Assembly: GCA_021307315.1 (NCBI GenBank)
Contig: JAJSPD010000080.1
Coordinates: 1-64,000 of the forward strand
DNA: 64,000 nt
Direction of reading: 5' to 3'
Source: Bisporella sp. PMI_857
Taxonomy: Eukaryota > Ascomycota > Leotiomycetes > Helotiales > Helotiaceae
In this document: positions 23,871-64,000 of the stretch, in pieces
Layout of the letters: every line of letters begins with the position of its first letter
Numbering within the stretch: position 1 is the stretch's first letter
Position numbers and translations under genes: made by a program
The notes under the pieces: generated by a model
The model's database searches: none
What the model was told of the DNA's origin: nothing
The model's input: only the letters and a program-made list of their open reading frames with translations

Positions 23871-24379
23871 AAACCCCCCTTCCGATCCCGACCCGCTATA
23901 CTTTGTACACACCACAATATTCCAGCTTTTTCCATCGGTGCACGCTTAGGCTTGGCACTGGTACTTTTAAGAATTTGTTAGTATTTTACATAGATTTTTG
24001 GCATTATAAACATTGCAATACGCCCAGTGCTATTTTATTTAGTACAGGTGATTATTAAAGCATCAGAACCTGTTGGTATCACTCTCTGTGATACCTTCTT
24101 CGTAATGATGACTTGCAATAGCTTAAGTCGGTTACCCACGGGGCACGTAGCACCGCGATCTCAGCGCAGTGCTATATATGCTCGTTGTAGGTGGTTGACT
24201 TGTTCTTGATTGTTCTAAGTTACGTCCTACGAGCGAGAACTTAAATACATTCAGGCGGTGGCCTGTGCGTCATAGGACGTTCACATGACTTTATACCAAC
24301 AGAACCTTATATATTCTCTAGTTTGTTGAGGGCTTGCAAAGAACTTTCGGCGTGACGCACGGACGTAAAAGGCTGAAAT

Positions 24380-31587: not shown

Positions 31588-34157
31588 ATGCCTTCTGCAG
31601 CACCAAACCTCTGCAATGCCTGCAGAAACCTCAATTTCGACACCCTCCTCGTCGCCCCCGACATCGAAGAGCGAGCAGCAGCGTACGACCGCTGGGAGCG
31701 CTGGCCGTACGCCAGCATGGGCTGGAACAACACTGAGCCCGAAGAGCGGCCGCCATGCCCCATTTATGACCCCAGCGAGAAGGCCGGCTACCAAATCTAC
31801 CCATCTTTTACTGCCCTTCTCGAATCCGCTGAAAAGGGTTGTGAGCTATGCAAGGCTGTTTCTGTAGAAGTCCCAAGGTATTTGGCGGAGGCGGAGAAGG
31901 GCAATAGAATACCGTTTGGGGACAGGAATCCAGTGAAAAGTGTGCAGTGGAAAGATCTTCCTGTGCAGCTGAGTTTTCTGGGTGATGTGGAGAAGCCGGG
32001 GGCGGAGGTGTGGGTGAGCTTGCTTTGGAGAAGGAGCGAGGGTGGGAAGATTACGTATGTGCTTGCTGGTGCGTTTAGCGTTTGGATTGAGCCCAGTAAG
32101 TACTTACATCAAACTCGAAAGGAGACATGGCTCACTGGAGAAGACGATCCATTGCATTCGCCGGTTTTGTCTTGCGGAAGACCTATCCCAACTGATCCGT
32201 CATCAAGCGCTTCGATGCTGTTCGCTAAAAATTGGCTAGAGAAGTGTCATAATGAGCATCATCTCTGTGCGTATGGGCGGGAGAATAAGTTCCCAAGAAG
32301 ACTAGTCGATGTTGGGCCGCCCGATGGTACTGAGGAACCACGATTAATTGAGACGCAAGATCCGAATATAACTTGGTGCACTCTCAGCCATACGTGGGGA
32401 GGGAAAGTGGCTCTCACAACGACAATGGCAACGCTAGAAGACCGCAAAAAGATGATTAAGATGAGTGAGCTCCCTCAGACGTTTCGGGATGCCGTTACCA
32501 TTGCTCGGCGACTTGACATTCGATACCTATGGATAGATTCTCTATGGCAAGTTGCTCTAATCTTTCTAAAATAGAACAATTTGCTTAATAATTTTCTAGC
32601 ATCATCCAAGATAGCAAATCAGACTGGATATCAGAGTCTCGCCGCATGGACGCTATCTACAAAAATTCCATCCTCACCATATCCGCAACGACCTCCAACA
32701 ACAGCGAAGGTGGGATCCTAACTCCACGACGACAACAATCTCCACAAATCGGTGTCCACTTCCATAGTCAAAGATACAACTTCAGTGGTATCCTCTGGAT
32801 CAGACATGTTCTTTCCCCTTTTGACCATGCCATAGAAGGTGATGAGAGTCCCTTGAGTCGTCGTGGATGGTGTCTACAAGAGCGAGTGCTTACGCCAAGA
32901 ACTTTGCATTTCGGTACTGAGCAGATGTTTTGGGAATGTAGGACGATGCAGGAACCGGAGGGGCTGCCTGCCAAAGAGCAATATTACGGTGATCCGAATA
33001 GAGCTTCTATTGGATGGGAGTGGGAGATGAATAAGTTATATCTTGTTCCATTGGACAAGGCCAGAGAAGTGTTTCCTAACGCTGGCCAATTGCCAGAATT
33101 CAGTAACCTCCCTTTTCAAACGGTCGTCTATTGCGAAGAATCCAGCTAATTTTAGCCAGAGGACGGCCCAACCCGCCCAACAGGCGTAAAATTCCAAACG
33201 GACACCCACGGCCTCGTCCCCTCGCGCCTGTACCTCAGCTGGTACGGCCTTGTCGAGAACTTCACGTCCCGCAACCTCAGCAAATCAAGCGACAAGCTCA
33301 TCGCCATCTCCGGTCTCGCATCAGAAATTCACAAACTTCTCGACAACGACACTTACCTTGCCGGGCTGTGGCGCAAGGACCTCCTCAATGATCTCTGTTG
33401 GTCGCCGCACTACGCCGTGGAATGCTTCCCTGCGGAAAGGTATCGCGCTCCGTCGTGGAGTTGGGCGAGTCTTGATGGGAGGGTTGGGTATCCGCATCAC
33501 CATTTTAAGCGTAGTGGGACACCGGCAACGCCAATGGGAGCGCCGTACGACGAGGCTGAGATCCTTGATGTGGCTGTCTCTTCCCAAAGTCCCTTCGGGC
33601 CTGTAACAGGAGGGTATCTAAAACTCAAGACTTTCTTCATGAGTATCAGAATCAACACCAAAGCGTACTTCAATAGACCCGCTCCAACCAGCTTGTTGCA
33701 ACAAGCGAACGCCCTCAAATTAGCGTTCAAGAGCTCATATATCTCGCGAAATGTCATGGAGAACGAAGATGGAAGCCCGCAATGGGTTAATAATCGGTAT
33801 TTCAAGCTTGTTATTTTCTCCGAGCCGCATCCGTTTTACAATGATGAAACGATTGTGCCTTGGCGAGTTGATTCCAACGGCACGGCTGTGTTTGAGGAGA
33901 ATGAGTTTGCGCTCAATCCAAGAGGGAAGTTAGAGTGTACGCTTGACCAAGTTTTTGATATTGAGGCGTTGGGCGGTACAGGAGCGACGTGGTTAGATTT
34001 TTTTGTATTGAGGGTTACGGGGAGGTATTTTTTGATGGTAACGCCGGTCGAGGGTAAAGAGGGAGTGTATAGGAGGATTGGGCTGGCGGTAATGGGGAAA
34101 TATACGGAATTTGCGGAGGAGCTGGGTAGGAGGGTTGATACTTTTACGATTGTATAA
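31588..34157 (+). CDS. HET domain protein
   Basis: Predicted incompatibility-type protein of about 827 aa. I start at ATG 31588 because the family-typical LCNACRNLNF begins there. Exons: 31588-32546, 32600-33122 and 33156-34157. Intron 1 is GC-AG (GCAAGT...TTCTAG, 53 bp) and splits the Cys codon of the HET signature YLWIDSLCIIQD, so it is well supported. HET blocks: WCTLSHTWGG (about residue 263), LPQTFRDAV, then RRGWCLQERVLTPR. The C-terminal half has RAPSWSWAS and ends GRRVDTFTIV. The second junction is doubtful: two in-frame stops (33147-33155) disappear only if a 33-bp GT-AG segment (33123-33155) is removed, which is very short for an intron. If it is not spliced, the gene is a pseudogene. 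Confidence 0.75.
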
Positions 34158-44145: not shown

Positions 44146-44481
44146 ACTCAATTTTGCCCTCCTCCAAGGAGTTCTAGCTTCCTTTTATATCTTTCGCACC
44201 TCGACTGTGTTGTATTCTTTCTTTACAGCCACCAAGCTTGTGATTTGCTTGTGATTTGAATATCTCCGAAAGTACTCTACCAGCTGAAGCCCACGACATT
44301 CTAAGTCCCACGCCTTTGTAGCGGCTGCAAGCCTGTAGCTGTAAGCCCGTGACTGGCCATGGGCTGGTTACGCCGTTTGCAGCCCTGAAGGTGCTGCAGC
44401 TGAAAACCTTATTTCCTCTTGTAAGGACTTTTATTTCATACCCAGGGTCTTGAACTAGTTTGACGGATCCTGGCTGTTACA
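44146..44481 (-). repeat. Family B repeat, diverged copy
   Basis: Contains GCTGTAAGCCCGTGACTGGCC and ends ATCCTGGCTGTTACA, in reverse orientation. Left end truncated against the MITE. Confidence 0.6.
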
Positions 44482-44504
44482 TGCGTACTATCACATACAT
44501 CCCA

Positions 44505-45480
44505 CAAGCTTCAACCCTGTGACGTTGGCATATTTAGACCACTCAAGACGGCTTATCGAGAGGAGGCCGAGCGTTTGTACCGAGGTGGCTCAAATATGAT
44601 CGGGAAGCAGCATTTCACCCTCTTTTATGATCGTGCCCACCAAAAGGCACTTAACCACAGAAACGTGATATCTGGCTGGTCCAAAACTGGGCTTCTCCCG
44701 TTTAATCCTGACAGAGTCCTAAGGGATATTCAAAAGCCAGAGATGACTGTCTATTCATTACCCGATGATACTAAGAAACTATATGCTTCATCAGAATCCT
44801 GTAACAACCGGTATGCCCAAGGTGCGACACGGAGATCATGGCACGGGATCAGGAGGCTGATGATCAGGGTATGAGGGGTTTCAGAGCCGATACGGCGGAG
44901 AGTCGGAGTCGCCTATATAAAGGGCCTGCTTCTATTCTCTACAGTTGTTCCTTATGTTTTTGTATCCTTCGTAGATAGACCCATAAGGCAATCACTGTCA
45001 GCCTATTGTACGCACTCCCATATGCCTCTATTCTAGCCCGTGATTCCTTGCGTCGTTACAAATCCCAGCTTGAGACCTTTAAAACATCAGAAAGTTTGAT
45101 GTCTTTGTTTAATCGTATTGAGAAGAGCATCGTGCAGGTAATGAAATTGATCGTAGCTGCAGAAGTAGCATCCGAAAGTTGGCAAATGCGGCTGAGAATG
45201 CTTTCATTAACAGAGCTATTCTCCTGAATGAGACCTTGTTGCCATTCGAGCAGAACAACGAGAAAACCATTCGGAAATACCTCAAAGCAAAAGTGGTGGG
45301 CAGTGCAAGAGTGATGAGTTACGAAGATATTTGTCGAAGCGCAAAAGCAACATGATGCCAAAGATGCAGCGATTGAAACAGCTCGTGCTCGACGATCAAA
45401 ACGAAAGCTTACCACTCGGGTTCTCGGAAATAGATCACGAGCTCAAGAATTGGAAAAAGCGGAATCTGAGATTATAGCGT
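44505..45480 (+). pseudogene. 3' half of a Pogo-type transposase, split by a solo LTR
   Basis: Starts within the last DDE1 block (CCCACAAGCTTCAACCCTGTG, equivalent to HKLQPCD) and continues with GGSNMIGKQHFT, NVISGWSKTGLLPFNPDRVLR. A family C LTR (44800-45060) interrupts it; after the LTR the frame continues SQLETFKTSESLMSLFNRIEKSI, equivalent to the segment after residue 410 of the intact gene at 50922. Then frame breaks and stops. It is closer to the 50922 gene than to the ones at 15815 or 22408. Confidence 0.75.
44800..45060 (+). repeat. Solo LTR, family C copy 2, TSD AATCC
   Basis: 261 bp from TGTAACAACCGGTATGCC to GCGTCGTTACA, with CCTATATAAAGGGCC. Perfect AATCC duplications at 44795-44799 and 45061-45065. 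It sits inside a transposase gene. Confidence 0.92.
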
Positions 45481-46128: not shown

Positions 46129-49100
46129 ATGAGCCTGGTAGAGCATTACTACACACTTTGGAGTATGTGGGACCTGGTTCACATTGACAGCGCTAACTAT
46201 GTTTTGACAGTATCGTTGTTGTACACGGACTTAACGGTGATCCGCTTTTTTCGTGGACTCATCCGGTGACAAAAGCATTCTGGCCGCAAGACTTCCTGCC
46301 TCTCGATATTCCCGAAGCTCGTGTGATGACTTTCGGGTATAATGCTACTGCGGCTTTCGGCAACACGACGGCAGATATTGTGGACCACGCGAAAGATCTT
46401 TTAGGGAGTCTTCTCGATAAACGAGAAATAGATGAAGAGCAGCGGAGACCGATTATATTCATCGCGCACTCTCTTGGGGGTATTGTTGTGAAGCAAGTAT
46501 GCTGAAGCCTCGCGGATACAAATCTATCATCTAACAAATCAGGCTTTACTTTCAGCCCGGATTGAATCGCAATATTCCTCAATCAACGAGAGCACTGTAG
46601 GAATCATCTTTTTCGGCACTCCACATACTGGAAGCGAAAAAGCAGCATATGGAAAAATTCTGGGAAGTGTTGCATCGGCTATGATCAATAAGCCGTCATC
46701 GAAGCTCCTCAGCGCTCTACAGAGTAATAGTGACATATTGGCTCGACTCACGTCTGATTTTAGGCATCAGTTGCCACAATACCAAATTGTCACTTTTTAT
46801 GAAACACGGCCGATGGGGCTGTTCAAAAAAGAGGTCAGTGCAAACGTGGATAGTGTGTAACGCGTCTGCCTCCTTGAATCTAATCGCCTACAGATCGTTG
46901 AGAAGCAGTCGGCATTGCTACAAGTGGCTGGAGAGGACCAACAGCCGATCAACGCTAATCATCGGGATATGTGCAAGTTCGCTGCCCGAGATGATGAGAA
47001 TTATGAGAAACTGTTCAAAAGAATACGCCGAATGCTGAAAGCGAAGAATAGAAATGAAGCCAGTAAAGCATGTACGTAGCTTTTATACTATTAAGATGGT
47101 TAAGTGCGCTTATATTTTATTATAGCTTCTGGTAACAAATTCTATTTTGTTCCACATAATGTCAGCGCAAGTTTCACTGGAAGAGACGATGTGTGTACTT
47201 AAATTCGAGATAGCTGTATTCTGCGTAACTCCACTGGCACACAGCGTCGCTTTGTTTTATATGGCCTTGGTGGTTCCGGAAAAACCCAAGTTGCTTTGAA
47301 GTTCACGCAAGATCATCGCGAAAGGTACTGAATGTTATATTTACAAGCTCGGCTAACAATATCAGTTACTGGGGCATTTTTTTGGATCGATTGCAGTACT
47401 ATACAGGCAATCGAACAAGGATTCATTAAAGTCGCTCGATTTTTCAAGATCGAAGAAAACATAAACGCGACACGGACATGGTTCTCAAACATCTCAAATA
47501 ATTGGCTTCTTTTATTCGATAACGCGGATGATGCTTCGATTGACATTTCTCGATATTTTCCAAGCGGCGGACGAGGGACTATTGTGATAACTACCAGAAA
47601 TCCTGAATGCAGAGTTCACCAGACAGTTGGTTCATATGAGTTTTCTGGGATGAAGACCGAAGAAGCCATTACTTTGCTCCTTAAACTGGTCGGAAAAGAA
47701 AACAGCTCCCAACATGAATACGAGGCGGCAAAAAGTGTCGTAAGCACATTAAGCAACCTCGCTTTGGCCATTATCCAAGCTGGTGCTGCTATCCGGCAAA
47801 ATTTATGCCGGCTCGAGGATTATTGTGAATTGTATCAGTGTCGCCGGCAGGAACTTTTAAGCTATGCGCCATCTCAAGCTAGGTCTGGTTATAAGTACAC
47901 GGTTTACACAACTTGGGGAGTCTCTATTAATATAATCAAAAGCTGAGAAGGTGAAGCACCCGGCCGTGCTTTGGAACTTCTTCGAATATTTTGTTTCCTT
48001 CACTATGACGGTATATCCGAGGAAATTTTCAAGCAGGGTTGGCAGAACTTGGAAAATGGATCCGACTTAGAGTATACAGCTTTAGGCCAAATTCGTTGGC
48101 TATATAAAGGCGACTTATCGACATGGGATCCTTACACATTCCGAGAAGCAATAGTTCTTTTATCATCTTTCTCTTTAATCAAGATTGATGAGTTTAACAA
48201 TTTTTCTCTCCACCCACTTGTTCATATATGGGCTCGAGATAGATTAAATGCGGAAGAGCAAATAAAGGCGGCAGCTTTAACGGCGCTAATATTAGCAAAT
48301 TCGATATCTTTTGGAGACGAGGTCTTTGACTTTATATATAGGAGATCTTTATTATCACATATTCTATGCTGCATGAAACATTTCAAGCTCCAGAATAAAA
48401 CTATACATAGCCAGGAAGAAGAGATCATAATAGCTTCGAAATTTGCTCAAGTATATGTAGATTCCGGACAGTGGCGAAACGCATGTGAGCTTAGAGAAGA
48501 GGTGCTCGAGGCGAGAAAAAGGACACTTGGAGATGAGCACCCAGATACTTTGTTGTCGATGAATAATCTTGCGTCAAGTTATAGCGATCTAGGTCGAATG
48601 CAAGAAGCAGTTAAGCTTAAAGAAAAGGTGCTCAAAGCGGGTAAAAGAACGTTTGGAGATGAGCATCCAAAAACTTTGACCTCGATGAACAATCTTGCGT
48701 CAAGTTATAGCGATCTAGGTCGAATGCAAGAAGCAGTTGAGCTTAGAGAAAAAGTGCTTGAAGCGAGAAAAAGAACGCTTGGAGATGAGCACCCAGATAC
48801 TTTGATGTCGATGAACAATCTTGCATCAAGTTATAGCGATCTAGGTCGAATGCAAGCAGTTGAGCTTGAGGAAAAAGTGCTCGAGGCGAGAAAAAGAACG
48901 TTTGGAGATTAGCATCCAAAAACTTTGATGTCGATGAATAATCTTACGTCAAGTTATAGCGATCTAGGTCGAATGCAAAAAGCAGTTAAGCTTAGAGAAA
49001 AAGTGCTCGAAGCGAGTAAAAGAACGCTTGGTGAAGAGCACCTAGATGCTTTGGTTTCGGCGAGCAATCTTGATGTCTACTTAGACATTCCAGAGTCGCA

Positions 49101-49572: not shown

Positions 49573-50170
49573 GGAAGCGCAGATGACCAGGTAGGTTCAA
49601 GTTCCCCACCAGGTATGTTTTTGCTTATGTAATCCAATTTGACCACCAGGTGTGTTTTTGCTTACATAAGAAACATACCTGATGGGGCATTTCGCAAAAT
49701 TTACAGGCTATGTTACAGGGCTTAACCTTATAAGCAACGCTATATTGTGCAAAGTTTACAGGCTATGTTACAGGGCTTAACCCTATAAGCAACGCTATAT
49801 TGTGCAAAATTTACAGGCCTTGTTACAGGGCTTAACTCTATAAGCAGCGCTATATCGCCCAAAATTTACAGGCTTTGTTACAGGGCTTAACTTTATAAGC
49901 AGCGCTATATCGTAGAAAATTTACAGGCTTTGTTACAGGGCTTGACTCTATAAGCAGCGCTATATCGCCCAAAATTTACAGGCTTTATTACAGAGCCTAG
50001 CTTTATAAACAGCGCTGAACTTAACTTTGTAATATTAAAAAAAAATTAATAATTTGTTACCGACTAGTTATAGACCAGTTACTAGTACATTTGCTTTACC
50101 AGGTATGTTTTTTCGCTTAAAAAAACATACCTGGTGGGGAACTTGAACCTACCTGGTCATCTGCCACTCT
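49573..50170. mobile_element. TIR element with 9-bp TSD and internal minisatellite
   Basis: Inverted termini centred on CAGATGACCAGGTAGGTTCA (49579 and, reversed, 50143-50162) extend for about 45 bp into ACCAGGTATGTTTTT. CTGAACAAC flanks it at 49564-49572 and 50171-50179. The middle is a 55-bp tandem array. No coding capacity. The duplication length suggests Mutator-type mobilisation. Confidence 0.75.
49700..50029. repeat. Six tandem copies of a 55-bp unit
   Basis: Unit starts TTTACAGGCTATGTTACAGG and repeats exactly every 55 bp (49700, 49755, 49810, 49865, 49920, 49975). Each contains GGCTTAAC..TATAAGCA and GCGCTATAT. Copies differ by a few bases; the last is the most diverged. Confidence 0.9.
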
Positions 50171-50327
50171 CTGAACAACTCCTCAACTCGGCAACCGGGT
50201 CTGCTTACATTGCTGACAATCATGGATAGCCAAGCTCCGACACAGGAACTCCAAGAGCAAGCCAAGGATCCAGAAATCCAACCAATGTAGGGATGTTCCT
50301 TATCGTTAGAGATTGCAGAGCTTTGTA

Positions 50328-50921
50328 ACGTCTATCCCTGCGTGCCGAAAAAGCTTGCGTGCCGAAAAGGTTTCACGGTTTTGGGGTGTGAAAAATAGTC
50401 CACGCAGATATATCAAGTTATACTTAGTTTATTATTGTTCTTTAGGTATTTCTCCACAAGTATTCTGGACTCAATAGGGAAATACTACAATTGTAGCAAT
50501 GCTGTTGATCATCTTGTCGCCGGCGTTGAAATTTACTTGAGCTGTTCCCCCCTGCTTTAACCTGACTATCGACCTGTCTTTAAATTTCGGAACCATAGCA
50601 TAAAGCTTCTATCAAAACTATATAAAGCTTATAAACTTTAGAGATATAGAGAACAAAGAATCCCAATGCCGAATTTATCCGGGCAAAGTGGGAGGTACGC
50701 AGAACGCTACACAGCCTAATAAGCGAAGAAGTGGCTTGAATATAATATCATATTTTACACAACTCTAGTCGTAGTTAAAATAGCATGTTTATAGCAGTGC
50801 ACGTGAGGTGTGGCGCACCAGGCGTTCCGTAGAAGCTTCCAGAACAGCCATGATACGTGGCACCTTCCAATCATCCTAATTCTATCCCATCTTCATGTTA
50901 CACATAACAAGGTAATTCCTC
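50328..50921 (+). mobile_element. Left terminus of the autonomous Pogo-type element
   Basis: Preceded by TA (50326-50327). Starts ACGTCTATCCCTGCGTGCCG, with GTGCCGAAAA repeated within the first 45 bases. The first 200 bp align with 53252 onward. The 594 bp up to the transposase start are otherwise AT-rich untranslated sequence. Confidence 0.7.
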
Positions 50922-52688
50922 ATGAGCGCCCGTGCTAGTAGAGCCCTTGCAGAGGCACTTGTGCCGGGAGAGCCTCAAACGTATAATGCCAGATCAAAAC
51001 GCCAAGGACTTCCTTTGTCTACCCTTTATCATCGTGAGCATGGGCGACCCTCGAGGAAACAGAAGGCCGAAAGCCAACAGTATCTCACTGTGCCAGAAGA
51101 GAAAGCCCTCGAAGCCTTTTTGAAACTAATGTCTGACTTTGGATATCCTGTACGAATTAAGTTTTTACCTTCACTCGCTTTTAGTATCGCCCACCAGCGT
51201 TCCACGACAAATAAATCAATTAAGCCTCCAACCAAAAACTGGGCTCAGGCCTTTCAGAAGCGTCACTCAGCACTCAAATCACGAAGAGTTAGAGCAATAG
51301 ACTGGAAACGCCATGAGAACAATATATATAACAAAGTAGTACACTGGTTTGAGGTGATTGAAAAGGTGTTAAAAGACCCCGCTATTCTGCCAGAGAATGT
51401 CTATAATATGGACGAGACAGGAGTTATGCTATGCATGCTCGGCTTCGTCAAAGTCCTCCTGAGTAAGGAGGATCTGCGAGACTATAGAGGCACGGGCGTC
51501 AAGCGAACGATGGTCACTGCCATCGAGTGTATTAGTGCAAACGGTAAGTCTTTGTTACCAATGGTTATATGGCCAGCTACTACCCATCGAAGCAACTGGA
51601 CTACATTCCATACTCCTGGATGGCATTATGCATGCTCCGAATCTGGGTATACCGACTCCAAGATCACCTTGGAGTGGCTCAAGCGTGTGTTTGATTCCCA
51701 AACTAAAGGGCAAACTAATAAGAAACCACGAGTGCTGATTTGTGATGGTTTTGGTACGCACGAGACTCTCGAAGTGTTGGAGTTTTGTTTTGAAAACAAC
51801 ATTATCCTTTGTCGCCTCCCCTCTCATACCTCCCACAAGCTTCAGCCTTGTGACGTTGGAGTCTTTTCATCCTTGAAAGGCTTTTACCGCGACGAGGCTG
51901 ATGCTCTGTTTCGAGGAGGCGCGAATACAGTTGGTAAGGAGCATTTTACCTGTCTGTACAGTCCTTCAAGGGAAAAGGCATTCACAAAAAGAAATATTCT
52001 CGCGGCATGGGCTGCTTGTGGTTTGTTTCCATTTAACCCAGACAGAGTACTCAGAAAGACACCAAAGCCGCCCGCTCCATTAACTGTCCCGAGAGCCGAT
52101 GAGATAGAGGTGGGTAGTTGTCAGCATGACGAACTCCTACCGACGCCTGTAACACCAGTATCAGCAGAGGGCTTTATGTCGCTGCATAACCTGATTAAAC
52201 AAGATGCTCATGCACTCAATGAGAGAAGTATACCGCGCCTGCAGAGCTATGTAGAGAAGCTTGCCAATGCCGGCCAAAGATCTTTTGCCCAATGTGCCCT
52301 CCTCAAAGATCAAAATGAATTTTTGACTAAAATGAATAACGAAGCCAAAGTTCGCAAATCAACCAAGCCCGTAGTGCTAGGGAAGGGGCAGGGAAAGGTG
52401 ATGAGCTATGAGGACCTCGAGGAGGCGCGAGCAACGCGTGCTGCAAAAGACCTTATGAAAGACAAGGGGAAACGTGGTCGAAAGCGTAAGAAGAGTAGTG
52501 TGCAAGAGCCAGAGCCAGAGCCAGAGCCAGAAGTGGCGCATGCTGCGAAAGAGGTCATAACTGGCAAGAGGAAGCGTCGTCGGAGTCATAAAAGTGTTGT
52601 GCAAGAGGAGGATGGGCCAGAGCAAGAAGTGGCCCGCGCGATCGAAGCGCCAGGGCCATGGAGAGCACCAGTGGCGTGTATGTTTTAA
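50922..52688 (+). CDS. Intact Pogo/Fot-type transposase (DDE1)
   Basis: 588-aa single-exon transposase of the Tc1/mariner superfamily, Pogo branch, which cuts and pastes at TA. The N-terminus has a psq-like HTH (RALAEALVPGEPQTYNARSK region) and a CENP-B/Tc5-type HTH (about 60-135). The catalytic triad is complete: Asp in VYNMDETGVM (about residue 165), Asp in LICDGFGTHE and Asp in LQPCDVGVF, spaced as in DDxD enzymes. The C-terminus is Lys/Arg-rich with nuclear-type KRGRKRKK and an unusual PE repeat (EPEPEPEPE). No stops or frameshifts. The left inverted end is 594 bp upstream; a matching right end is found only at 57706, beyond a second left-type end at 53252. Confidence 0.92.
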   Translation: MSARASRALAEALVPGEPQTYNARSKRQGLPLSTLYHREHGRPSRKQKAESQQYLTVPEEKALEAFLKLMSDFGYPVRIKFLPSLAFSIAHQRSTTNKSIKPPTKNWAQAFQKRHSALKSRRVRAIDWKRHENNIYNKVVHWFEVIEKVLKDPAILPENVYNMDETGVMLCMLGFVKVLLSKEDLRDYRGTGVKRTMVTAIECISANGKSLLPMVIWPATTHRSNWTTFHTPGWHYACSESGYTDSKITLEWLKRVFDSQTKGQTNKKPRVLICDGFGTHETLEVLEFCFENNIILCRLPSHTSHKLQPCDVGVFSSLKGFYRDEADALFRGGANTVGKEHFTCLYSPSREKAFTKRNILAAWAACGLFPFNPDRVLRKTPKPPAPLTVPRADEIEVGSCQHDELLPTPVTPVSAEGFMSLHNLIKQDAHALNERSIPRLQSYVEKLANAGQRSFAQCALLKDQNEFLTKMNNEAKVRKSTKPVVLGKGQGKVMSYEDLEEARATRAAKDLMKDKGKRGRKRKKSSVQEPEPEPEPEVAHAAKEVITGKRKRRRSHKSVVQEEDGPEQEVARAIEAPGPWRAPVACMF

Positions 52689-53249
52689 AGAGTAGATTAT
52701 GGGGAACCATGTCGCTACAAAGGAATTGAATTCGAGTAGGTTTCTTGAGGTAGGCTTGCTCCTGGCTAACAATTGTATTTTAGTCAGTTATTGTGTTATC
52801 GGCGTAACGGATGAGATAGAAGGGATAGATTACCACTTTTCAGGATTTCAATATAATATCCTAACCACCGTTAACGTTACCGGTTATGTTGATTCTCTGT
52901 TTGTGACTCCATTTTCCTGTCGACAGATTATGCTTGATGCAATTTTTATCCGGAACCTTTGGATATCTCGCACACTGCAAGCACCGATGTGCTTCGAATC
53001 TTCGAGATTAGAGCAGTAGTAATAAAAGCAAAGAGTGGCGTGAACGAATGATATATCGCGACAAGAACGGTGTCGGCTGACAGAAATGGTGTGCGAATTC
53101 AGAGTGTTCAAATGCCGTGTCAGCAAGTTGCGCCTTCAAAATTTTCACTTTTAATGCGTCAGCCACAAGCACTAAAGAGCCACAAGGTTGGCAAGCAAAT
53201 CAGTTTGGATGAGCAATGACTGAAGTGAAGTGGAAAGGCAACATCCGAT
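52689..53249. other. Sequence between the transposase gene and the second Pogo-type left end
   Basis: 560 bp without a recognised gene. I looked for the right inverted end of the transposase-bearing element here and did not find one. Confidence 0.5.
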
Positions 53250-53251
53250 TA

Positions 53252-56200
53252 ACGTCTATCCCTGTGTGCCGAAAGAACCGGTGTGCCGAAGAAACTTTAT
53301 AGTTTTGGGGCCTTTACTATAATCTCCACCACATAAATATGTAAAGCTATAATCTGTTTGCAATTGTTCTTTAGCTATTTTCTACAAGGGCTCGACTTGC
53401 AGTCAGAAAAATGCTACAGTTTGGCAATGCTGTCGATCGTCCTGTTGAGAGCGTCAAAAGCTGCTGTAGCTATTGCCCCCGCTCTATTATGACTGTACGC
53501 TCAGCTTCCTCTCACAAGAACAAATCATGGCCTAATTGAGCACACATTTCAAAACGTCTTATGCCAACTAAACTTATAGCTTTCAGAACTCCTACGGTGA
53601 GCCCAAGTGATTGGCAGGCCTTGCGCGCTACAGTGACGCAGCGCGATATAGACGCGATGTTATCGCTACAAGGCTGGCGCTCAGCTGAGTGCGCCAGCCT
53701 CAACCCAACGTCCTCACTCAAATCTTCTCACCTCGCATCTATGCCAGCTCGACGGCCTAATAACTACCGAGAACTTCCTCTCTTGCAGTCCTGTAACCTA
53801 GTCGAATAATGCGTCTGCTACAGTATAACAACGATGGCGATTTGAGCCTGACCGAGTTTTTTGGGAGCGAAATACCCAAGTATGCTATACTTTCACACAG
53901 ATGGGATGCGGAAAAGGTCACTTTCAAGGATCTGATAAACGGTACGAGCAAGAGCAAAGCTGGCTATGGCAAAATACAGTTCTGTGGTGAACAAGCTGAG
54001 CGTAATGGCTTGCAATACTTTTGGGTGGACACCTGCTGTATCGACAAATCCAATGCCGTCGAGCTTCAGGAGGCTATCAACTCTATGTTTCGCTGGTATC
54101 AGAATGCGGACCAATGCTATGTCTATCTCTCAGATGTGTCGAGTGATTTGTCTACTGAGTATACTTGGGAACCAGCATTTCGGTCAAGTGAATGGTTTAC
54201 TCGAGGCTGGACCCTTCAAGAGCTTATTGCTCCGACATCAGTTGAGTTCTTCTCTAAGGACCAGGAGCTTCTAGGCGACAAGAGAAGGTTAAAGCGACAA
54301 ATCCACGAGATAACAGGAATTCCTCTCTCAGCGCTTCGAGGAACGCCTTTGTCTCATTTCAACATCGAGGACCGATTGATATGGGCGGGAACCCGTCAAA
54401 CTACGCGCGAGGAAGATAAGGCGTACTCGATGTTAGGCATATGTGACATCTATATGCCACTCATTTATGGTGAAGGGGAAAAGAACGCATTCAGACGGCT
54501 CCGGAAGGAGCTCGGTAAGCTTATTATTTAAATCGCTACCTGATCATAGCCAGCTCAGACTAGGGCTAATTAATATAAGGGTTTGACAACGATCTACTCG
54601 ACTTTTTACCACATGCCATCGAAGCACCTTTCAACTCAGTCAACCGTCACGATGAACCTAGTTGCCTTCCTAACACTCGAGTTGACTTGCTACAAGAGAT
54701 ATGCGACTGGGCTGATGGAGAAGATGAACGGTGCATATTCTGGCTCAATGGCTTAGCCGGCACAGGGAAATCGACAATTGCACGGACCATTGCCCAGCGA
54801 TACTATAAGGAAGAGCGCCTTGGGGCCAGCTTCTTTTTCTCAAAAGGTGGCGGAGATGTGAGCCATGCCGGCAAGTTCTTCACCAGTATTGCCGTGCAGC
54901 TCGCAAACAGCATACCGTCTCTCCGACACTACATTTGTAATGCTATTTCAAACCGCAAAGATATTGCAAGTCAGTCCTTCTGTGACCAGTGGAGCCAGCT
55001 TATCCTTCGCCCATTGTCAAAGCTTGGCAGCGGCTCGTCTCCGTCCTTTTACGTGTTGGTAATCGATGCCCTGGATAAGTGCGACAAAGATGAGCATATT
55101 CGGATGATTTTGCTGCTCTTAGCTGAAGCTCGAACACTGAAAACTGCCAGACTTCGGGTCTTGTTGACAAGCAGACCTGAAATCCCGATGCGCCACGGCT
55201 TTTACCAGATCCCCGACGCCGAACACCAGGACTTTGTACTTCACAACGTACTGCCTACAATTATCAACCATAATATCTCTCTATTTCTGGAATACAATCT
55301 AGAGATAATCAGGCAAAAGTGGACTCTTGGTGCAAACTGGCCAGGCGAAGTAGTTCTCAGACAGCTGATTCTACACGCTTGTGGCCTTTTCATTTGAGCG
55401 GCAACTGCATGTCGGTTTATTCGCGAAGAGAAGCGATTCGCACGCAAAAGACTGGATATAATTCTCAAAAGCAGTAGCAGCGCTATTACCGCACTAAAGA
55501 AGCACCTCAACGAGATCTACTTTGCTGTCTTCAAGCACTCGCTTTCCGCGGAGTATTCGGACGAAGAAAGAGAAGAGGTATGCGATATGTTAAAGTATAC
55601 GCTTGGAAGCATAGTAGTATTGCTTTCACCTCTTTCCACCTTTTCATTAAGCAGGCTATTACACCTTCTAAGGGAAGATATCAACCGGACATTTGAGGAC
55701 TTTCATGCGATCTTTGACATTCCAAAGGACCCGAGTCGGCCGCTCCGCCTCCACCACCCTTCATTTCATGACTTTTTGCTCAATAAAGATCGATGTGGAG
55801 ATTTCTGGGTGGATAAAAAGAAGGCACACCAGATATTAGCTGCTAGTTGTATACAGCTAATGTCCCAGACACTGAAGAAGAACATTTGCGAAATGCATGC
55901 TCCTGGCAGTCAAACCAGCCAAGTTGAGAATAGTTGGATTGAGAAATGCCTTCCGCCCGAAGTTCAATATGCATGCCTTTACTGGGTCCAGCATCTGCAA
56001 AAGGGTGATTCTCAGGTTCGTGATGGCGAAGAAGCTCACCAGTTTCTGCAGGCTTATTTACTGCACTGGCTCGAAGCGCTTGGCTGGATGGGGAAAGCTT
56101 CAGAGGGAATTCAAGCAATATTATCCTTAGAGGCTTATATTCCGGTCAGCTATTTCTCTATTGTTTATAAGAATTTAATTAACTTGCCCTTAGGTTAATA

Positions 56201-57706
56201 ATAGCCCCAATTTGCATGCATTGATCCATGATGCTAAGCGATTTGCCTTATATAACCGATCTGTTATTGAAAAGGTACCTCTTCAATTGTATTGCTCTGC
56301 TCTTGTCTTTGCGCCAGAAAATAGCATTGTTCGAAGGAAGTTCAAGGGTTGTATCCCAGATTGGATTCAGCTGAAACCAAAAGTGCAAGCACACTGGGAC
56401 GCGGTACTACAAACGCTCGAGGGCCACACTAACTCGGTCACATCTGTGGCTTTCTCACTCGACGGCAAGCAGGTCGTGTCGGGCTCAAAGGATGAGACGG
56501 TCCGGCTCTGGGACGCGGCGACAGGAGCAGTGCTGCAAACGCTCGAAGGCCACACTAGCTATGTCACATCCGTGGCTTTCTCACCCGACGGCAAGCAGGT
56601 CGTGTCAGGCTCATACGATGAGACAATCCGGCTCTGGGACGCGGCGACAGGAGCAGTGCTGCAGACGCTCGAGGGCCACACTGACTCGGTCAGCTCCATC
56701 GCCTTCTCGGCTGACGGCAAGCTATTGCCATCCTTACAAGTATCAAATTATTGGGTAGTGGAAGGCAATACGAATATTCTTTGGCTGCCTCCTGATTATC
56801 GGGAAATTCATTCAGCTACTTGGAATAAGAGTCTTGTTATAGGGCATTCATCTGGGAGAATTTCATGCTTTTCTTTTAAAAAAGGAGCAAAGCTTGTTAT
56901 GTAAAATTAAAAAAAAAATCTTTATTTCTTAGAAGGTCCTAGGGAACCATCTACTTATATACTCTTTTAGAATTGTCACTTGCCTTCTAGCATTTTCTAG
57001 AAAGTATAGTATTCAATGGATTTGCCACGAATCCATTGATCTTCTGTATAGACAATACAGGTGTCTTGATTGGTAAGCCTCAAGTGGTGCTTAACAAGAG
57101 CTTGAATAGTTTGTCTCTGGTCCTAGAGTTGACTAATAGAGCTCCGTCGCTGCCTCAATGTATGCTGCTTGGCTGATGATATCATCGCATCAGGCACCAA
57201 AGCACCTCCAGCCACTGTTTGGACTTTATGCCTAAGGCTTCATAAATGAAATTACAGCGTAAATATTATAAGCGTGCGGGGCTGTTTCGCACTAAACCAA
57301 AATTGTCAGCCGAGGTCCTGATCTGTATGGCAATCTTACCTGAATTTGCCTCTCACAGCAGCCACAAGGCTAATAACGATTTCTTATATAGGGGCGAGGC
57401 TCTAGAGCTCGGATAAGACTTTTTTTATAAAGTATTAGGATAGTATAAGCTTAGTGGTGGAGCTGTGGTGGAGGAGCTCTGTTACGCTATAAAAGGAGAC
57501 TCTTTGTAAATCAGGCGTGAAAGCGACGATAAGAATATAGTTTTCTAGTAGGAGAAGTTTAGAGTGTCCAGGAGTAGCTATAGAACATAACTTATAAAAA
57601 ATTATAGGGAGATATAAAAGTATGCACGGATTTTAAGATGCTTTAAGTCAAAGTACCTATCATTTTTTTCGGCACACCGGTTTTTTCGGCACGCAGGGAT
57701 TGACGT
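53252..57706 (+). mobile_element. Putative non-autonomous Pogo-type element carrying an NLR gene
   Basis: Inverted ends of about 45 bp: left ACGTCTATCCCTGTGTGCCG, right (reversed) ACGTCAATCCCTGCGTGCCG, both continuing into CCGGTGTGCCGAA, with four mismatches. TA flanks both sides (53250-53251 and 57707-57708). The 4.45-kb interior holds the HET-NACHT-WD40 gene on the plus strand and no transposase. Left subterminal sequence is shared with the transposase-bearing element at 50328. Alternative: a single composite element from 50328 to 57706 with an internal extra terminus. Confidence 0.65.
53809..56904 (+). pseudogene. Broken NLR: HET-NACHT-WD40
   Basis: Same architecture as the Podospora HET-D/HET-E incompatibility proteins. 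Exon 1 (53809-54514) is the HET domain: YAILSHRWD, YFWVDTCCIDKSN, FTRGWTLQELIAP, EDKAYSMLGI and the C-terminal YGEGEKNAFRRL. After a 65-bp intron the NACHT domain has GLAGTGKST (Walker A) and LVIDALDKCD (Walker B, with Lys where Glu is usual). Then a helical region and two complete WD40 repeats plus part of a third (LQTLEGHT...VRLWDAATGAV, 126 bp each), fused to a conserved tail (NYWVVEG to GHSSGRISCF). Damage: TGA at 55395-55397 where Trp is expected, and an extra base near 56196. Native members usually have more WD40 repeats, so the array has probably contracted. It lies inside Pogo-type inverted ends. Confidence 0.88.
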
Positions 57707-57708
57707 TA

Positions 57709-58191
57709 TGATTTTGACTTCGGCCCACATTTTCTTATAGAGCTAGCCCCAATATAGTTAGCTGCCTTTCATTAGCTTCCGTTCCCCGGTCTGGGGCATT
57801 TAAGGCTGAACTGCATCACGTGGTGGACATACGTCATCCTAAAAATAGATACTGGCACCATGTAGTAGAACATTCTAGAATCAGCAGTAAACTGTGTTCT
57901 CTTGTTGTGTAGTGAAGCATAGGTTCATGCTCTTTAGAAACCCAATTCCATGGACTCAAACTAATCCCCTCGCCCGAAATCCGCCCAGGCATAGATCTAT
58001 TGGCAAGTCAAGGCTTGCCGGACTGAACCTTCTAACAACCTACTTACAATTCTATAGTGTTATGCGATATACGCGCACTTCAGTGTGCTTGCAACGGCAG
58101 GTGCTCGCTTTTGTTTCGATGTTGTACACTCAGATCTCTCATCATGCTACAGGATTGAACAGCCAGACCACGGTCTCATCGAAAACGAACT
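57709..58191. other. Intergenic region, no gene recognised
   Basis: About 480 bp between the element end and the next coding remnant; one short frame at 57894-58205 has no known motif. Confidence 0.4.
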
Positions 58192-59461
58192 ATGAGCAGC
58201 CCTGATCTCTCTGATGACCTTTTCGAAGCAGAAGAGCCTTGGGATCCATATGCTGATTCCAGTCAGCAATCGACGCATACCAATCAAGTCAAGTTATGCC
58301 CGCTTCTTGACTGGCACAGCGAGAGAACATATAATGAGAGCTATATGCGTTATTCAGTTGAGTGGAAAGTTACAGTGAACAACAGAGCAATAATGCCGAA
58401 AGACACGGAGCAGGATGTAATTCTCGTGCTTGCTGCGTTCTGGAGTCACTTGCTCGAGCCTAAACTAAAAAGCTTTTTGCGCAAGAAGAAGAGACCCCTT
58501 AAATCCGAGGATACAAATGTTGTGGTTTCAGTCACTGAGCGGTCAGAGCGTGATCTAACGAAACGATTTGATGACACTACCATTGATTGGGCAATTATAG
58601 AAAAGCAACTTCTCGCATGGAGTGAATGGTACCAAGCAGGTAAGAAACTCAGAGTGAGCCTCTCATTCAACTACGTAGACACTAGTCAGTCGTCAACTAC
58701 TTCATTGGGAAGGGTAGACAAAAGAGGCTCCACATCCACAACTCGGCAAATGCTTGCCGAAGGAGCTGCGTAACTAGATGCGGAAGAGGCGTCTTCTGGA
58801 CACCCCCCCCCCCCGCTTGGCGGAACGTATATAATCTTATGCGCTGCCCTGGTCCTTCCTGTAACAAAGGGCCTCATTGCTGGCGTGACCCTATTGGTAA
58901 GAAGCACTATAAATTGAACACACGTTACTTAAAAAGCCTCGTCATGTACGTGCTTGAAGGTCATACACTAGAGACACATAACGATGTACCTGAAGACCTT
59001 GGTGAGGAGCTGTACGCAGAGGAACAGCAGTCGCTAGAGAGACATCAAAAGGCTTCTAGAGTATCTGCTTCCAGTATTCCTCCTGTCCATATCACAAATG
59101 TGATCCCCGCGCCGTCTGGTCAGATATCCCAATTAGCATCTTCAGCTGGAGGTTTGGCCTCGGACGTGCCTGCAAAATTTACTTCAAGTGTTTGTCTCGA
59201 CATTTCTGGCTACTTAGATGAGCATGTAAAGGAATACTGTGCTTGGCAGCAATCAAGAGTTAAGAAGCCATCATGGAAGGAGGACTGTAAAAAAGCTTGC
59301 GAGGTGATGATTAAAAGGGCATAGACCTGAATCAGATCCGCAAGGATCCAAATCCTGATATTTTGATCTGCGAAGGGGTTCAGAGCGGGACTGCAAAACG
59401 GGTTGTGAGTGAGATCGACTACTGGTTCGAGACGACCAAGCGAGCGAGGACTGAGGAATAG
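58192..59461 (+). pseudogene. Degraded gene with a CPGPSC...GPHCW Cys/His motif
   Basis: Starts MSSPDLSDDLFEAEEPWDPY. A first part (to TAA at 58771) has a WSHLLEPKLKSFLRKKK region. After a frame change in the C run at 58801-58812 the text continues with CPGPSCNKGPHCWRDP, GKKHYKLNTRYLKSLVMYVLEGH and DVPEDLGEELYAEEQQ. A third frame carries GIDLNQIRKDPNPDILICEG and ends TAG at 59459. I recall this Cys-rich block from uncharacterised fungal proteins, often in repeat-rich regions, but know no function. The order and spacing suggest one former protein of about 420 aa broken by a stop and two frameshifts. Confidence 0.5.
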
Positions 59462-59557: not shown

Positions 59558-60538
59558 TTACGGCTTTTCAATATGTATCCCTGCGTGTCTAAAATGCCCT
59601 CTGGCGCTGTCTTTCTTTTTACCTACTACGTCAATGCACCATTCCAAAAACATATCAAAACCTTGCTGTGGGTTGTCTTCATAAATGTGCCAATTACGTT
59701 TTATAAAAGCTTTTAACTCTGCGAAGAACTCTTCAATAGGGTTGAAATCAGGCGAGTATGGCGGCAGATATACTAGCTTTACACCAGCATCACGACACAT
59801 ATACTCGATTCGCTCTGTGTGATGAAAAGAGGCATTATCCATAACAAGAACTGATTTCGGTTCGGGCCACTTTCCCATCAAAGGCAGCAGTTGTTCGATG
59901 AACTCTTCAAAGACTGTGCTGTCTGTCGATCCTTGGAAGACTCGCGCAAGGACAACACCATCCTGTGCATATGCTGGCAATATTTGGTACCGCTTCTCAC
60001 GTTGAAAAGCGGCGATTTGAACTGGAGTCACCCCAAGCGGAGCCCATCCCATCAGTCTATACCCACTTCGTTTGTCACAGCCAGACTCACCCACAAAGAC
60101 AAAATGATACGAACGGAAGTCCGACTTCCACAAGTTATGTAAGTATAAATCTCGCAGATCAGCATTTCGCGCTTTTGCTATACGACGAATCGTTTTCTTG
60201 GTCCAACCGCGAGATCTGAGGGCTCTGCTTACACTGGAAACCGTGGTACGGACATCAAACTCATCCAATAAGAAAAGGACTATCTCATCCCGACATAAAC
60301 CAGGCTTCTCCAGCAAGTATTCACACAGCGCATCTAGCATCAGAGGCGTAATGCTTCGAGGTCGTCCGGCACCGTTATTGGGGGCTTTAGTGGAGCCATA
60401 AACATAAAGGTTTGACTTGATCGTATAGACGGAACGTTCACTGCAACCAACATCATTAGCTATTTCAGCGGCAGAACATTTAGCAAGGAGCATATCACGA
60501 ATCTGGGCATGTTGAGATTCTGCAAGATTTGGAGCCAT
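59558..60538 (-). CDS. Tc1/mariner-type transposase (DDE_3) with a missing catalytic Asp
   Basis: 326-aa uninterrupted frame. Residues 1-60 are a homeodomain-like HTH (AEIANDVGCSERSVYTIKSN), followed by a second HTH and the DDE_3 core. The second catalytic Asp is D234 (VLVMDNASFHH) and the third acidic residue E269 (PDFNPIEEFFAEL), a 34-residue spacing. The first, expected in FVDESGCDKR, is Gly150 (FVGESGCDKR), so the enzyme should be inactive. The full length and lack of stops imply recent loss. No convincing inverted ends were found by eye. The short gap to its left (59462-59557) has nothing else. Confidence 0.88.
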   Translation of the reverse strand: MAPNLAESQHAQIRDMLLAKCSAAEIANDVGCSERSVYTIKSNLYVYGSTKAPNNGAGRPRSITPLMLDALCEYLLEKPGLCRDEIVLFLLDEFDVRTTVSSVSRALRSRGWTKKTIRRIAKARNADLRDLYLHNLWKSDFRSYHFVFVGESGCDKRSGYRLMGWAPLGVTPVQIAAFQREKRYQILPAYAQDGVVLARVFQGSTDSTVFEEFIEQLLPLMGKWPEPKSVLVMDNASFHHTERIEYMCRDAGVKLVYLPPYSPDFNPIEEFFAELKAFIKRNWHIYEDNPQQGFDMFLEWCIDVVGKKKDSARGHFRHAGIHIEKP

Positions 60539-61047: not shown

Positions 61048-64000
61048 ATGGCAGATCCTTTTGGCATTGTCGGTGTTATTAGTCTAACTATTCAGATCAG
61101 CCAAGCAGTAGTTCAGATCGGCGTAGACTGGAAGGATGCACCAGACAATGTCAAGGCATTCATGGCTGAGCTAAGAACACTGAAAACTGTGTTATCCGAA
61201 ACGCATGCTAATCTCCTTCTTAACTCAGATTTCGAAGCAGCGTTCCCCAATCGACCGTCGCTTCTCCTTTCACAGCTGGGTTCTAATGGCTCGAATACAG
61301 ACACAAAATTGATGCTAGACTTATGTCGGGGAAATCTGGAAGCTTTGCTGAAAGAGCTTACAAAAAGAGGACAAGGCTATAAACTGGGCTGGGACAGATT
61401 GAAAGGAGCATTTCTGGCTAAAGATACTCGAGATTCGGTCGAAAATCTCAGCCGACAGTGCCAAACCCTGAACTCCATGCTCTTGATCGATACAGCAGTG
61501 CTCGCAGCAAGCACTCACAAAAAAGTCAGCGAAGCAAGAAAAGAGCAGCAGCAATGGCACCAAACAGACAGCAAAACGTTATTAGCAATTCAAAGCAGTG
61601 TTGATCAGTCTGAATCATGGCAGAAAAGCAAAAAAGACCAAGCTATCCTTGACTGGCTTTCTCCGCTCGATTACACTTCTCAGCAACATGACTTTATCCG
61701 TAGACGACAGCCCGGGACAGGCCGGTGGCTGCTAGATGCGGCGGAATATCAAGCATGGATAGGAGCGGAAAAGAAGACGTTATTCTGCCCCGGGATTCCT
61801 GGTGCTGGCAAAACAATTCTGACAGCAATCGTAATTGATGACCTTAGTACGCGTTTTGCTAATGAGAGAAATGTCGGGCTGGCTTATGTTTATTGCAATT
61901 TTAAACGGCAAGATGAGCAAGGAATTGGCGACTTTCTTGCAAGCCTGCTGAAGCAGCTTAGCCAACGAATGCTGTCTCTGCCAAATAACATAAAATCTCT
62001 TTACGACCACCATTCAAATAAGCGGTCTCGACCAGCGAAAGATGAAATCTTGAAGACGCTACAGCATATAGCTTCTACATTCTCTCGAGTCTTCATTATC
62101 GTCGATGCTCTAGACGAGTGCCAAGTGTCTGATGGTTGCCGAACGGAGCTTTTGTCAGAACTTTTTGATCTCCAGTCAAAATGCCAGACCAATTTATTTG
62201 CGACTTCAAGGTTTCTTCCGGACGTTGATGAAGTTTTCAAAGGTAGCATATATTTAGAAATTCGAGCAAACGAACAGGATGTCCAGAGATACTTAGATGG
62301 CCACTTATCGTTGCTTCCGAAATTCGTACGAGATAATCCGGAATTGAAAAACGAAGTTAAACGCGATATTATAAAGGCTGTTGATGGGATGTAAGTCTTT
62401 GTCCGAAGTTTTGGTAGATAATACTTACTCCTATAGGTTCCTGCTTGCACAGCTTTATCTCAACTCTCTGAAAGGGAAAAGATCCCCAAAAGCTGTCCGA
62501 ACGGCTCTGGGAAAACTTATAACTGGATCTGAAGCGTATGACTACGCATACAAGGAAGCAGTGGAGAGAATCGAAGGTCAACTTTCAGACGAAGAAGAGC
62601 TTGCAAAGCAAGTACTCTATTGGATCATTTGCGCAAGGCGGCCATTAACGACGGCTGAGCTTCAGCATGCTCTTGCGGTTGAGCCTGGGGAAACACAACT
62701 TGATGTGGAAAATATGTCACAAGTAGGAGATATGATTGCGGTATGCGCTGGACTAGTCACGGTTGACGAAGAAAGCAGAATTATTCGTTTAGTCCATTAT
62801 ACGGCGCAAGAATACTTCAAACGAACTCAACATGAATGGTTTCCTGCAGCAGAAGCGAGTATAACATCAACTTGCATCACATACCTTTCTTTTCATTCAT
62901 TTAATAGTGGGTCTTGCCGTTCCGATGCTGAACTTGAAGAACGACTACGATTCTATAAGCTATACCATTATGCTTCACAGAACTGGGGACACCACGCTCG
63001 AGTAGCTTCAGTTTTAACTGCTGGAGTTGTGAACTTCCTGTGTCACGTACCTAATTTGGAAGCATCAATCCAGACTTTAATAGCTCGAAAACGTTATTCT
63101 GGGCATTCAAAATATAGCGAGGATTTTCCGAGACAAATGACAGGGCTGCACACAGCCGCATATTTCGGCATCGGAGGTGCGATAAATATTTTGCTGGATC
63201 GGGGGCAACTCAATATACAGGACAGCTATGGTAAAACGCCGCTATCATGGGCTGCTGAGAATGGACACGAAGCTGTTGTCAGGCTCCTGCTTGACACAAG
63301 CAAAGCAAATATCGACTTACAAGACAATAAGTACGGCCAAACGCCGCTTTTGTGGGCTGCTGAGAATGGGCACGAAGCTGTTGTCAGGCTGCTGCTTGGC
63401 ACAGGCAAAGTCGATGTCGACTCACGAGGCAAATCCGGCCAAGCGCCGCTATTATTGGCTGCTTGGAAAGGACACGAAGCTGTTGTCAGGCTGCTGCTTA
63501 ACACAGGCAACGTTAATGTCAACTTACAAGACAACAATTCTGGCCAAACGCCGCTATCATGGGCTGTTTGGAAAGGACACAAAGCTGTTATTAAGCTGCT
63601 GCTTGACACAGGCAAAGTCGATGTCGACTTACAAGACAAGTTCGGCCAAACGCCGCTATTATGGGCTGCTGCGAAAGGACACGAAGCTGTTGTTAAACTG
63701 CTGCTTGACACAGGCAAAGTCGATGTTGACTTACAAGATAACGAGAACGGCCAGACTCCGCTATCACAGGCTGCTGAGAATGGACACGAAGCTGTTGTTA
63801 AGTTGCTGCTTGACACAGGCAAGGTTGATGTTGACTCACAAGATAATAAGTACGGCCAGACGCCGCTATTATGGGCCGCTGCGAATGGACACGAAGCTGT
63901 TGTCAAGTTGCTGCTTGACACAGGCAAGGTCGATGTTGACTTACAAGATATCAAGTACGGCCAGACTCCGCTATCACAGGCTGCTGAGAATGGACACGAA
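61048..64000 (+). CDS. NLR: HeLo-like-NACHT-ankyrin, 3' end outside the window
   Basis: Apparently intact fungal NLR. Exon 1 is 61048-62390; a 46-bp intron (GTAAGT...CTATAG) splits the Met codon after DG; exon 2 runs from 62437 off the right edge. The first 200 residues match the Helo_like_N type N-terminal domain (FGIVGVISLTIQISQAVVQ, DWKDAPDNVKAFMAELRTL), related to membrane-targeting cell-death domains. The NACHT core has GIPGAGKT (about residue 250) and VFIIVDALDECQ (about 350). A winged-helix region (EELAKQVLYWIICARRPLT, RLVHYTAQEYF) follows, then at least eight ankyrin repeats of 35-36 aa from about 63140 (GQTPLLWAAENGHEAVVRLLLDTGK), very similar in DNA. No stops found. It is the best candidate in the window for a working recognition receptor. 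Confidence 0.9.

Follow-up and report, generated by a model that had tools for sequence, protein, structure and literature searches.

NLR and HET genes as probable cargo of a family of small pogo-type transposons in Bisporella sp. PMI_857

The Fot1/pogo-like Tc1-mariner transposons of fungi are bounded by terminal inverted repeats (TIRs) of 36-70 bp and encode a DDD transposase, and the miniature inverted-repeat transposable elements (MITEs) derived from them are said to be movable in trans (PMC4188875, PMC7325037; here and below, published systems are described from excerpts of the cited papers). The spacing DD35D is given for pogo groups 33-40, of which Fot1 is clade 37 (PMC7325037). Here we describe an element that encloses a NOD-like receptor (NLR) gene at positions 53250-57708 of the window, a stretch of 64,000 nucleotides (contig C264, positions 1-64000) from the genome of one strain, Bisporella sp. 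PMI_857 (55.6 Mb in 284 contigs; C and a number denotes a contig of this genome, L and a number a fetched locus). The element and its relatives resemble the Fot1/pogo-like elements in their TIRs, in the DDD transposase of a neighbouring element and in having MITE-like derivatives. They also share with most Sclerotinia families the tip ACGT, which is reported there for families other than TcMar-Pogo. However, the Sclerotinia elements are 1.8-2.3 kb long, possess a single transposase gene and have TIRs without direct repeats, whereas those described here measure 4.4-9.1 kb, contain NLR or HET genes and carry a repeated motif within the TIR (PMC4188875).

NLR-like genes are already known from mobile elements, the nearest precedents being Starships and ToxhAT (PMC9594970, PMC6737239). 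Starships carry HET, NACHT and ankyrin cargo, but they are large, comprise many genes and encode a tyrosine recombinase (DUF3435; PMC9594970), for which no match lies inside the end-pairs listed here. ToxhAT is likewise a DNA transposon with TIRs that carries genes, and its authors assign one of the encoded proteins, of Patatin-TPR type, to the NLR family; in contrast to the multi-copy pogo-type elements of Bisporella, whose usual cargo is an NLR or HET gene, it is of hAT type, 14 kb long and holds several genes (PMC6737239). The HNWD genes of Podospora (het-d/het-e) have the same HET-NACHT-WD40 order and the high internal WD40 identity seen in some of our elements, but in the excerpts of these papers they are not reported as transposon cargo, a transposon relic being mentioned beside one pseudogene (PMC12222747, PMC1805685). 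In Fusarium, the Tc1-mariner/pogo MITEs mimp and mFot5 lie beside interaction genes (SIX), and one gene pair between inverted repeats was said to be perhaps transposable; unlike the ends described here, they are mostly separate promoter insertions and not the ends of one repeated mobile unit (PMC3599309). In the open-licence literature of PubMed Central, which leaves most subscription papers outside and was seen in excerpts, we found no report of NLR or HET genes as regular cargo of pogo-type elements. The apparent novelty lies in a pogo-type family that is small and multi-copy and normally contains an NLR or HET gene.

We consider it very probable that 53250-57708 is a worn, non-autonomous copy of a pogo/Fot-type transposon in which an NLR gene stands in place of the transposase, and that its relatives form a family in which the ends are fixed and the receptor cargo is exchangeable. 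The ends recur around different NLR and HET genes, whole copies occupy unlike sites, three members have empty TA sites and three contain transposase remnants. The original prediction had described inverted termini of about 45 bp with TA on both sides enclosing a HET-NACHT-WD40 gene but no transposase. Both arms (53250-53294 and 57664-57708) are indeed 45 nt long and 91% complementary with TA at each outer edge, the domains were confirmed, and no similarity to the neighbouring transposase was found inside 53250-57708. The predicted interval, 53252-57706, holds the element but leaves out the TA. The gene shows the HET-NACHT-WD40 order of the HNWD family of NLRs. This copy is worn: it has few WD40 repeats, lacks the left half of its target and is broken by an in-frame TGA that had escaped the original prediction. 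Judged from the sequence, its other frame changes look like introns. Some other copies have longer open frames, such as the HET-NACHT frames of L037 and L039 with 770 and 805 amino acids. The identity of the 126-bp WD40 blocks is 0.93-0.98 among ten successive blocks in C283, 0.87-0.96 in C54:40701 and 0.9 in one block of the short array in the window; it is lower in C1, C54:27996 and C156.

As had been proposed, the genome was searched with the ends of the element; other copies with different cargo were found, and three members have empty TA sites. The left 271 bp matched at 31 places and the right 309 bp at 43, the window being included in each count. A 24-nt tip pattern allowing three mismatches gave 159 genome matches (window included) against 0 for the reversed pattern, and with two other tip patterns the numbers were 77 and 122, with 0 in controls; the match sets overlap. 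A tip pattern found no match among the IMG/VR viral contigs. All counts built on the listed tip matches and on the HET matches (150 scored of 325 candidates) are lower bounds. From 205 distinct ends 40 facing neighbour pairs were obtained, 30 of them 2.5-12 kb long. At least 20 of these 30 contain a listed HET or NACHT match, at least 23 when Pfam matches in C35, C46 and C230 are added, and two contain a transposase belonging to the close clade. When these intervals were displaced by 12-30 kb (six shifts), they held HET or NACHT in only 1-4 of 30 cases and the intervals between non-facing neighbours in 4 of 31, again among the matches listed. Pairing is least sure in five of the 20 pairs, which are 10.6-11.4 kb long (C25:19341, C68, C135, C215 and C248). 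The pairing rule also missed two elements whose ends abut other ends, C283:43660-50255 and C252:1085441-1091425. Twenty-two of the 30 pairs were fetched whole; among the other eight, C25:19341 was fetched in part, and three (C25:47407, C76:22215 and C234) belong to the seven without HET or NACHT. Seen from the genes, an inward-facing end lies 0.5-1.5 kb upstream of 30 of the 150 listed HET matches but downstream in the same direction of only one, whereas HET coordinates shifted by 20-60 kb gave a mean of 0.9 and a maximum of 4 in 1000 runs.

The fixed ends of the family comprise an inverted repeat of 45 bp, in which a TGCCGA-type motif occurs twice, and conserved left and right modules of about 0.25-0.5 kb. 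The left module may carry a promoter. In L013 (C54:27996-34209) and L027 (C156:214307-220298) right-module sequence stands inverted at both ends, giving inverted ends of about 300 bp. MITE-like pairs of 239-251 bp also belong to the family. Four of 251 bp, with related CGTAGCG-type tips, lie at C92:10977-11227, C106:757-1007, C156:681563-681813 and C38:18479-18729.

Twenty-four elements of 4.4-9.1 kb with pogo-like ends were read, namely the 22 pairs fetched whole and the two missed by the pairing rule; single-end loci (such as L011, L026, L032, L033, L035 and L036) and short pairs in L016 and L017 were not counted. Twenty of them carry HET and/or NLR genes (Table 1), including the C252 element with its truncated right end. 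The other four are C38:3334 with a split transposase, C30 with a transposase fragment and an acetyltransferase, C63 with a BTB protein, and C220, which has NLR-type left and right modules and a truncated left tip. At the C220 locus (L022, C220:250806-257662) the cargo is metabolic and not an NLR: next to a transposase 3' end lie genes for a GST, a Zn2Cys6 regulator and an NmrA-like protein. The window element and the HET-ankyrin element of C219 are alike in their ends (left 82% over 213 bp, right 86% over 400 bp), yet the HET parts of their proteins are only 49% identical. Either the uptake of cargo has therefore happened repeatedly, or there is recombination between ends and cargo. In trees of the HET and NACHT domains, elements whose ends are recognised do not group apart from those in which none is, so that ends have been gained or lost repeatedly or go unrecognised. 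Each tree has 12 rows from 14 loci, L018 and L027 being absent from the HET tree and L037 and L039 from the NACHT tree at the cut-off used.

The claim that an incompatibility-type NLR has become cargo of a cut-and-paste transposon thus holds for a family with varied NLR cargo, three members of which have empty TA sites. C17:44097-50448 is inserted in a repeat of about 235 bp, four uninterrupted copies of which (L016, L026, L029 and one in the window) are 97-98% identical and have a single TA. C283:30247-34650 has a sibling element as its target and is inserted 104 bp into the tip; the uninterrupted sequence is present at 100% over 203 bp in L045 (C25) and at 78-80% in L016, L028, L040 and L041. 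The joined flanks of C13:830874-835622 match L021 at 81% over 245 bp. Duplication of the target TA is thus seen in the single TA of the empty sites for C17 and in matches spanning the site for the other two. Moved copies tell the same story. C264:69607-74859 and C283:43660-50255 are 92.4% identical over 4860 aligned bases (lengths 5253 and 6596 bp, differing in the WD40 array); their left flanks are unmatched, and a MITE-like repeat stands in both right flanks, though not at the same distance. C13:682163-686634 and C283:30247-34650 are 92.9% identical over 4277 bases and have unrelated flanks. Two pairs of copies at 92-93% in unlike sites mean that the NLR moves together with the ends. Of the 303 differences in the second pair, 236 are C-to-T or G-to-A changes on the side of the C13 copy, which also has the shorter frames. 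The change resembles repeat-induced point mutation (RIP), yet CpT sites (99) exceed CpA sites (72), and in the first pair there is hardly any such bias (144 changes in one direction, 124 in the opposite one). Of the NLR transposon copies at L044 and L043, one bears RIP-like changes. When transposition duplicates NLRs, it may thereby expose them to RIP.

The element beginning at 50326, just left of the NLR element, encodes an apparently complete transposase. The original prediction had called this transposase intact, which agrees with a 588-amino-acid frame without internal stops, and had noted a match between the left end of its element and the subterminal sequence of the NLR element; the left ends of the two elements are 70% identical over 250 bp. 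The comparison of transposases covered 74 scored of 352 candidates. The acidic triad, picked by motif and not by a model, is D164, D275 and D311 with 35 residues between the last two; a helix-turn-helix (CENP-B type) DNA-binding domain was sought in the window protein at E 0.001 without a match, while several homologues carry PF03221 and one from Rutstroemia bears the name pogo. Close homologues of the transposase and of a related NLR were found in fungi, many of the closest named ones in Lachnellula, Pseudogymnoascus, Rutstroemia, Hyaloscypha and similar genera. These four are Leotiomycetes. The left module aligns with the NLR elements for about 400 bp. C46 aligns over the first 860 bp (left end and transposase start) at 68%, C230 in two blocks, and C220 with the transposase 3' end; past the transposase part each holds other cargo and a right-end match, that of C46 being NLR-type. 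These remnants and the intact frame at 50922-52688 suggest mobilisation in trans. The window transposase is the obvious candidate helper and might act on the NLR ends; movement would be cut-and-paste, driven by this or a similar enzyme. The family may have arisen when genes for host NLRs replaced the transposase interior; this would have happened repeatedly, or cargo would afterwards have been exchanged between the ends. Further pogo-type transposase relics (31-57% identity) lie at 16301-17341, 22489-22950 and 44476-45352 of the window, and a tandem array of a 55-bp unit (5.9 copies) at 49694-50016, just left of the transposase element.

It might be thought that 50326-57708 is instead a composite autonomous element that moves as one unit, the end at 53250 being an internal relic. 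One right end does serve two left ends here, the transposase frame is intact, and transposase sequence stands 5' of other cargo in C46, C230 and C220. The insertion site speaks against it. The right end entered a repeat (repeat X) at a TA; the copies of repeat X at C76 (94% over 133 bp), C13 and C1 continue through the same TA and are preceded there by a shared tip of about 37 bp, which is also present in a weaker, diverged fourth copy at C264:65444. This tip is found neither left of 53250 nor left of 50326, and a search of the whole window for the missing half with up to 3 mismatches gave 0 matches. The proposal of a composite element, raised in the original prediction, thus lacks its left junction, and the left junction seen today is not the original one. 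It was rearranged after insertion or is misassembled; one-ended cutting with repair, exchange between ends, or misassembly could be the cause. Joined flanks of 53250-57708 found the right half of the target and no spanning empty site, and those of 50326-57708, compared with the fetched DNA, also found the right half only. At C54:13593 the same order of left end and transposase is followed by no right end among the matches listed before 34209, 20 kb further on. The stretch 52919-53249 has no other match in the genome search, and the 3' flank of the transposase gene matched at 9 places, none with a recognised right end. We regard a composite element as unlikely, although neither interval is proven to have inserted here as a single unit.

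Several observations weigh against a family of NLR transposons as we describe it. With the left target half missing, the insertion of the window copy is not shown intact. We found no transposase element that is uninterrupted and bears NLR-type ends on both sides; C38:3334-8650, which has the tips and a split transposase, differs in its inner sequence. The tips read TA-ACGT, and ACGT is given for Sclerotinia families other than TcMar-Pogo (PMC4188875), so that it is the transposase that justifies the name pogo. Because the tip search pattern contains TA, finding TA at ends picked by it is not independent evidence; target-site duplication is shown by the empty sites alone. Nine of the 150 listed HET matches have an outward-facing end in the same upstream range (none downstream), which we read as abutting or nested elements. 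Divergence of left and right ends was not significantly correlated among 13 elements (Mantel test, r 0.11, p 0.26), two of which have right-type sequence at both ends and some of which are truncated. Finally, the nearest NACHT relatives of the window copy (83%, 82% and 74%; L029-L031) have no recognised end in the fetched DNA.

Alternatively, MITEs or deleted elements could have inserted separately and flank NLR genes by chance in a repeat-rich compartment. The short MITE-like pairs and the rearranged left junction in the window would fit, but units containing NLRs have empty sites and full copies elsewhere, and the shifted intervals rarely caught a HET or NACHT gene; we think this very improbable in general, and it is refuted for C17, for C283:30247 and, with a more diverged target, for C13:830874. 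Less probable still is that NLR loci with old transposon ends in them spread by segmental duplication and not by transposition. NLR genes also expand by duplication, and several copies share contigs (C264, C283 and C54), but similarity stops at the ends, the flanks are unlike except for the MITE-like repeat beside one pair, and the empty sites with a single TA contradict it for the copies tested. Least credible is a Starship with a DUF3435 captain: Starships do carry NLR and HET genes (PMC9594970) and the genome has 44 DUF3435 matches, but none of the 44 lies on C264 or inside a listed end-pair and the 24 elements read measure 4.4-9.1 kb and have pogo-like ends.

Table 1. Positions of features in the window and cargo of the elements read (elements named by contig and start)
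Feature	Position or elements	Strand	Remarks
Empty site (single TA) of the C17:44097-50448 target	24070..24301	-	
Left end module of transposase element	50326..50731	+	66-74% in alignments with the left modules of other elements fetched
Pogo/Fot-type transposase, 588 amino acids, DDE_1, DD35D	50922..52688	+	sole full-length stop-free copy among listed matches of at least 55% identity
3' flank of transposase gene	52689..52918	+	68-72% to C54, C277 and C220 copies (in part)
Left TIR of NLR element, begins with target-site TA	53250..53294	+	tip pattern recurs genome-wide
Left end module	53250..53494	+	69-87% identity to other left ends (longer genome matches)
Open frame with HET domain (PF06985)	53809..54531	+	intron probably next
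NACHT / NPHP3_N domain	54579..55394	+	Pfam
In-frame TGA, breaks window NLR copy	55395..55397	+	
Open frame between NACHT and WD40, no Pfam match	55398..56195	+	probably intron at end, acceptor near 56192
WD40 part: about three 126-bp repeats and C-terminal tail	56194..56901	+	
Right end module	57186..57708	+	83% to C54:40701-46419 over 528 bp; 86% over 400 bp to HET-ankyrin element C219
Right TIR, finishes with target-site TA	57664..57708	-	
Repeat X, right end inserted in it at a TA	57707..58200	+	uninterrupted copies at C76, C13, C1
HET-NACHT-WD40 cargo	window, C264:69607, C283:43660, C54:40701, C54:27996, C38:50316, C283:83370		
HET-NB-ARC-TPR cargo	C17, C13:830874, C283:30247, C25:13604		
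HET with ankyrin cargo	C219, C46		
NACHT-WD40 cargo without HET match	C1, C156		
HET-WD40 cargo without NACHT match	C252		
HET with TPR cargo	C13:682163		
NACHT-DUF7791 cargo	C35		
Other HET genes as cargo	C230, C146		

Receptor-type genes abound in this region. Further HET, ankyrin and NACHT genes as well as weak NB-ARC genes, together with repeat arrays, lie at 18987-21893, 25365-26477, 31588-32574, 47332-49072 and 61048-64000, and a DDE_3 transposase frame of 326 amino acids at 59558-60538, to the right of repeat X.

The NLR and HET genes of fungi are numerous, scattered and differ from strain to strain, and how they become so is a standing question. Our results indicate that parts of the repertoire for self/non-self recognition are copied and relocated as transposon cargo, and small transposons with a known type of end that carry such genes make the question of receptor variability directly testable. 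A bolder suggestion, which we offer tentatively and hold somewhat short of an even chance, is that the elements form a dedicated class of immune-receptor transposons, and that a sizeable share of the HET/NLR repertoire has been built by cut-and-paste copies whose ends are fixed and whose receptor cargo can be swapped. If so, receptors would show presence-absence polymorphism, duplicated receptors would come under RIP-like mutation, and the receptor would possibly serve the element itself by rejecting partners.

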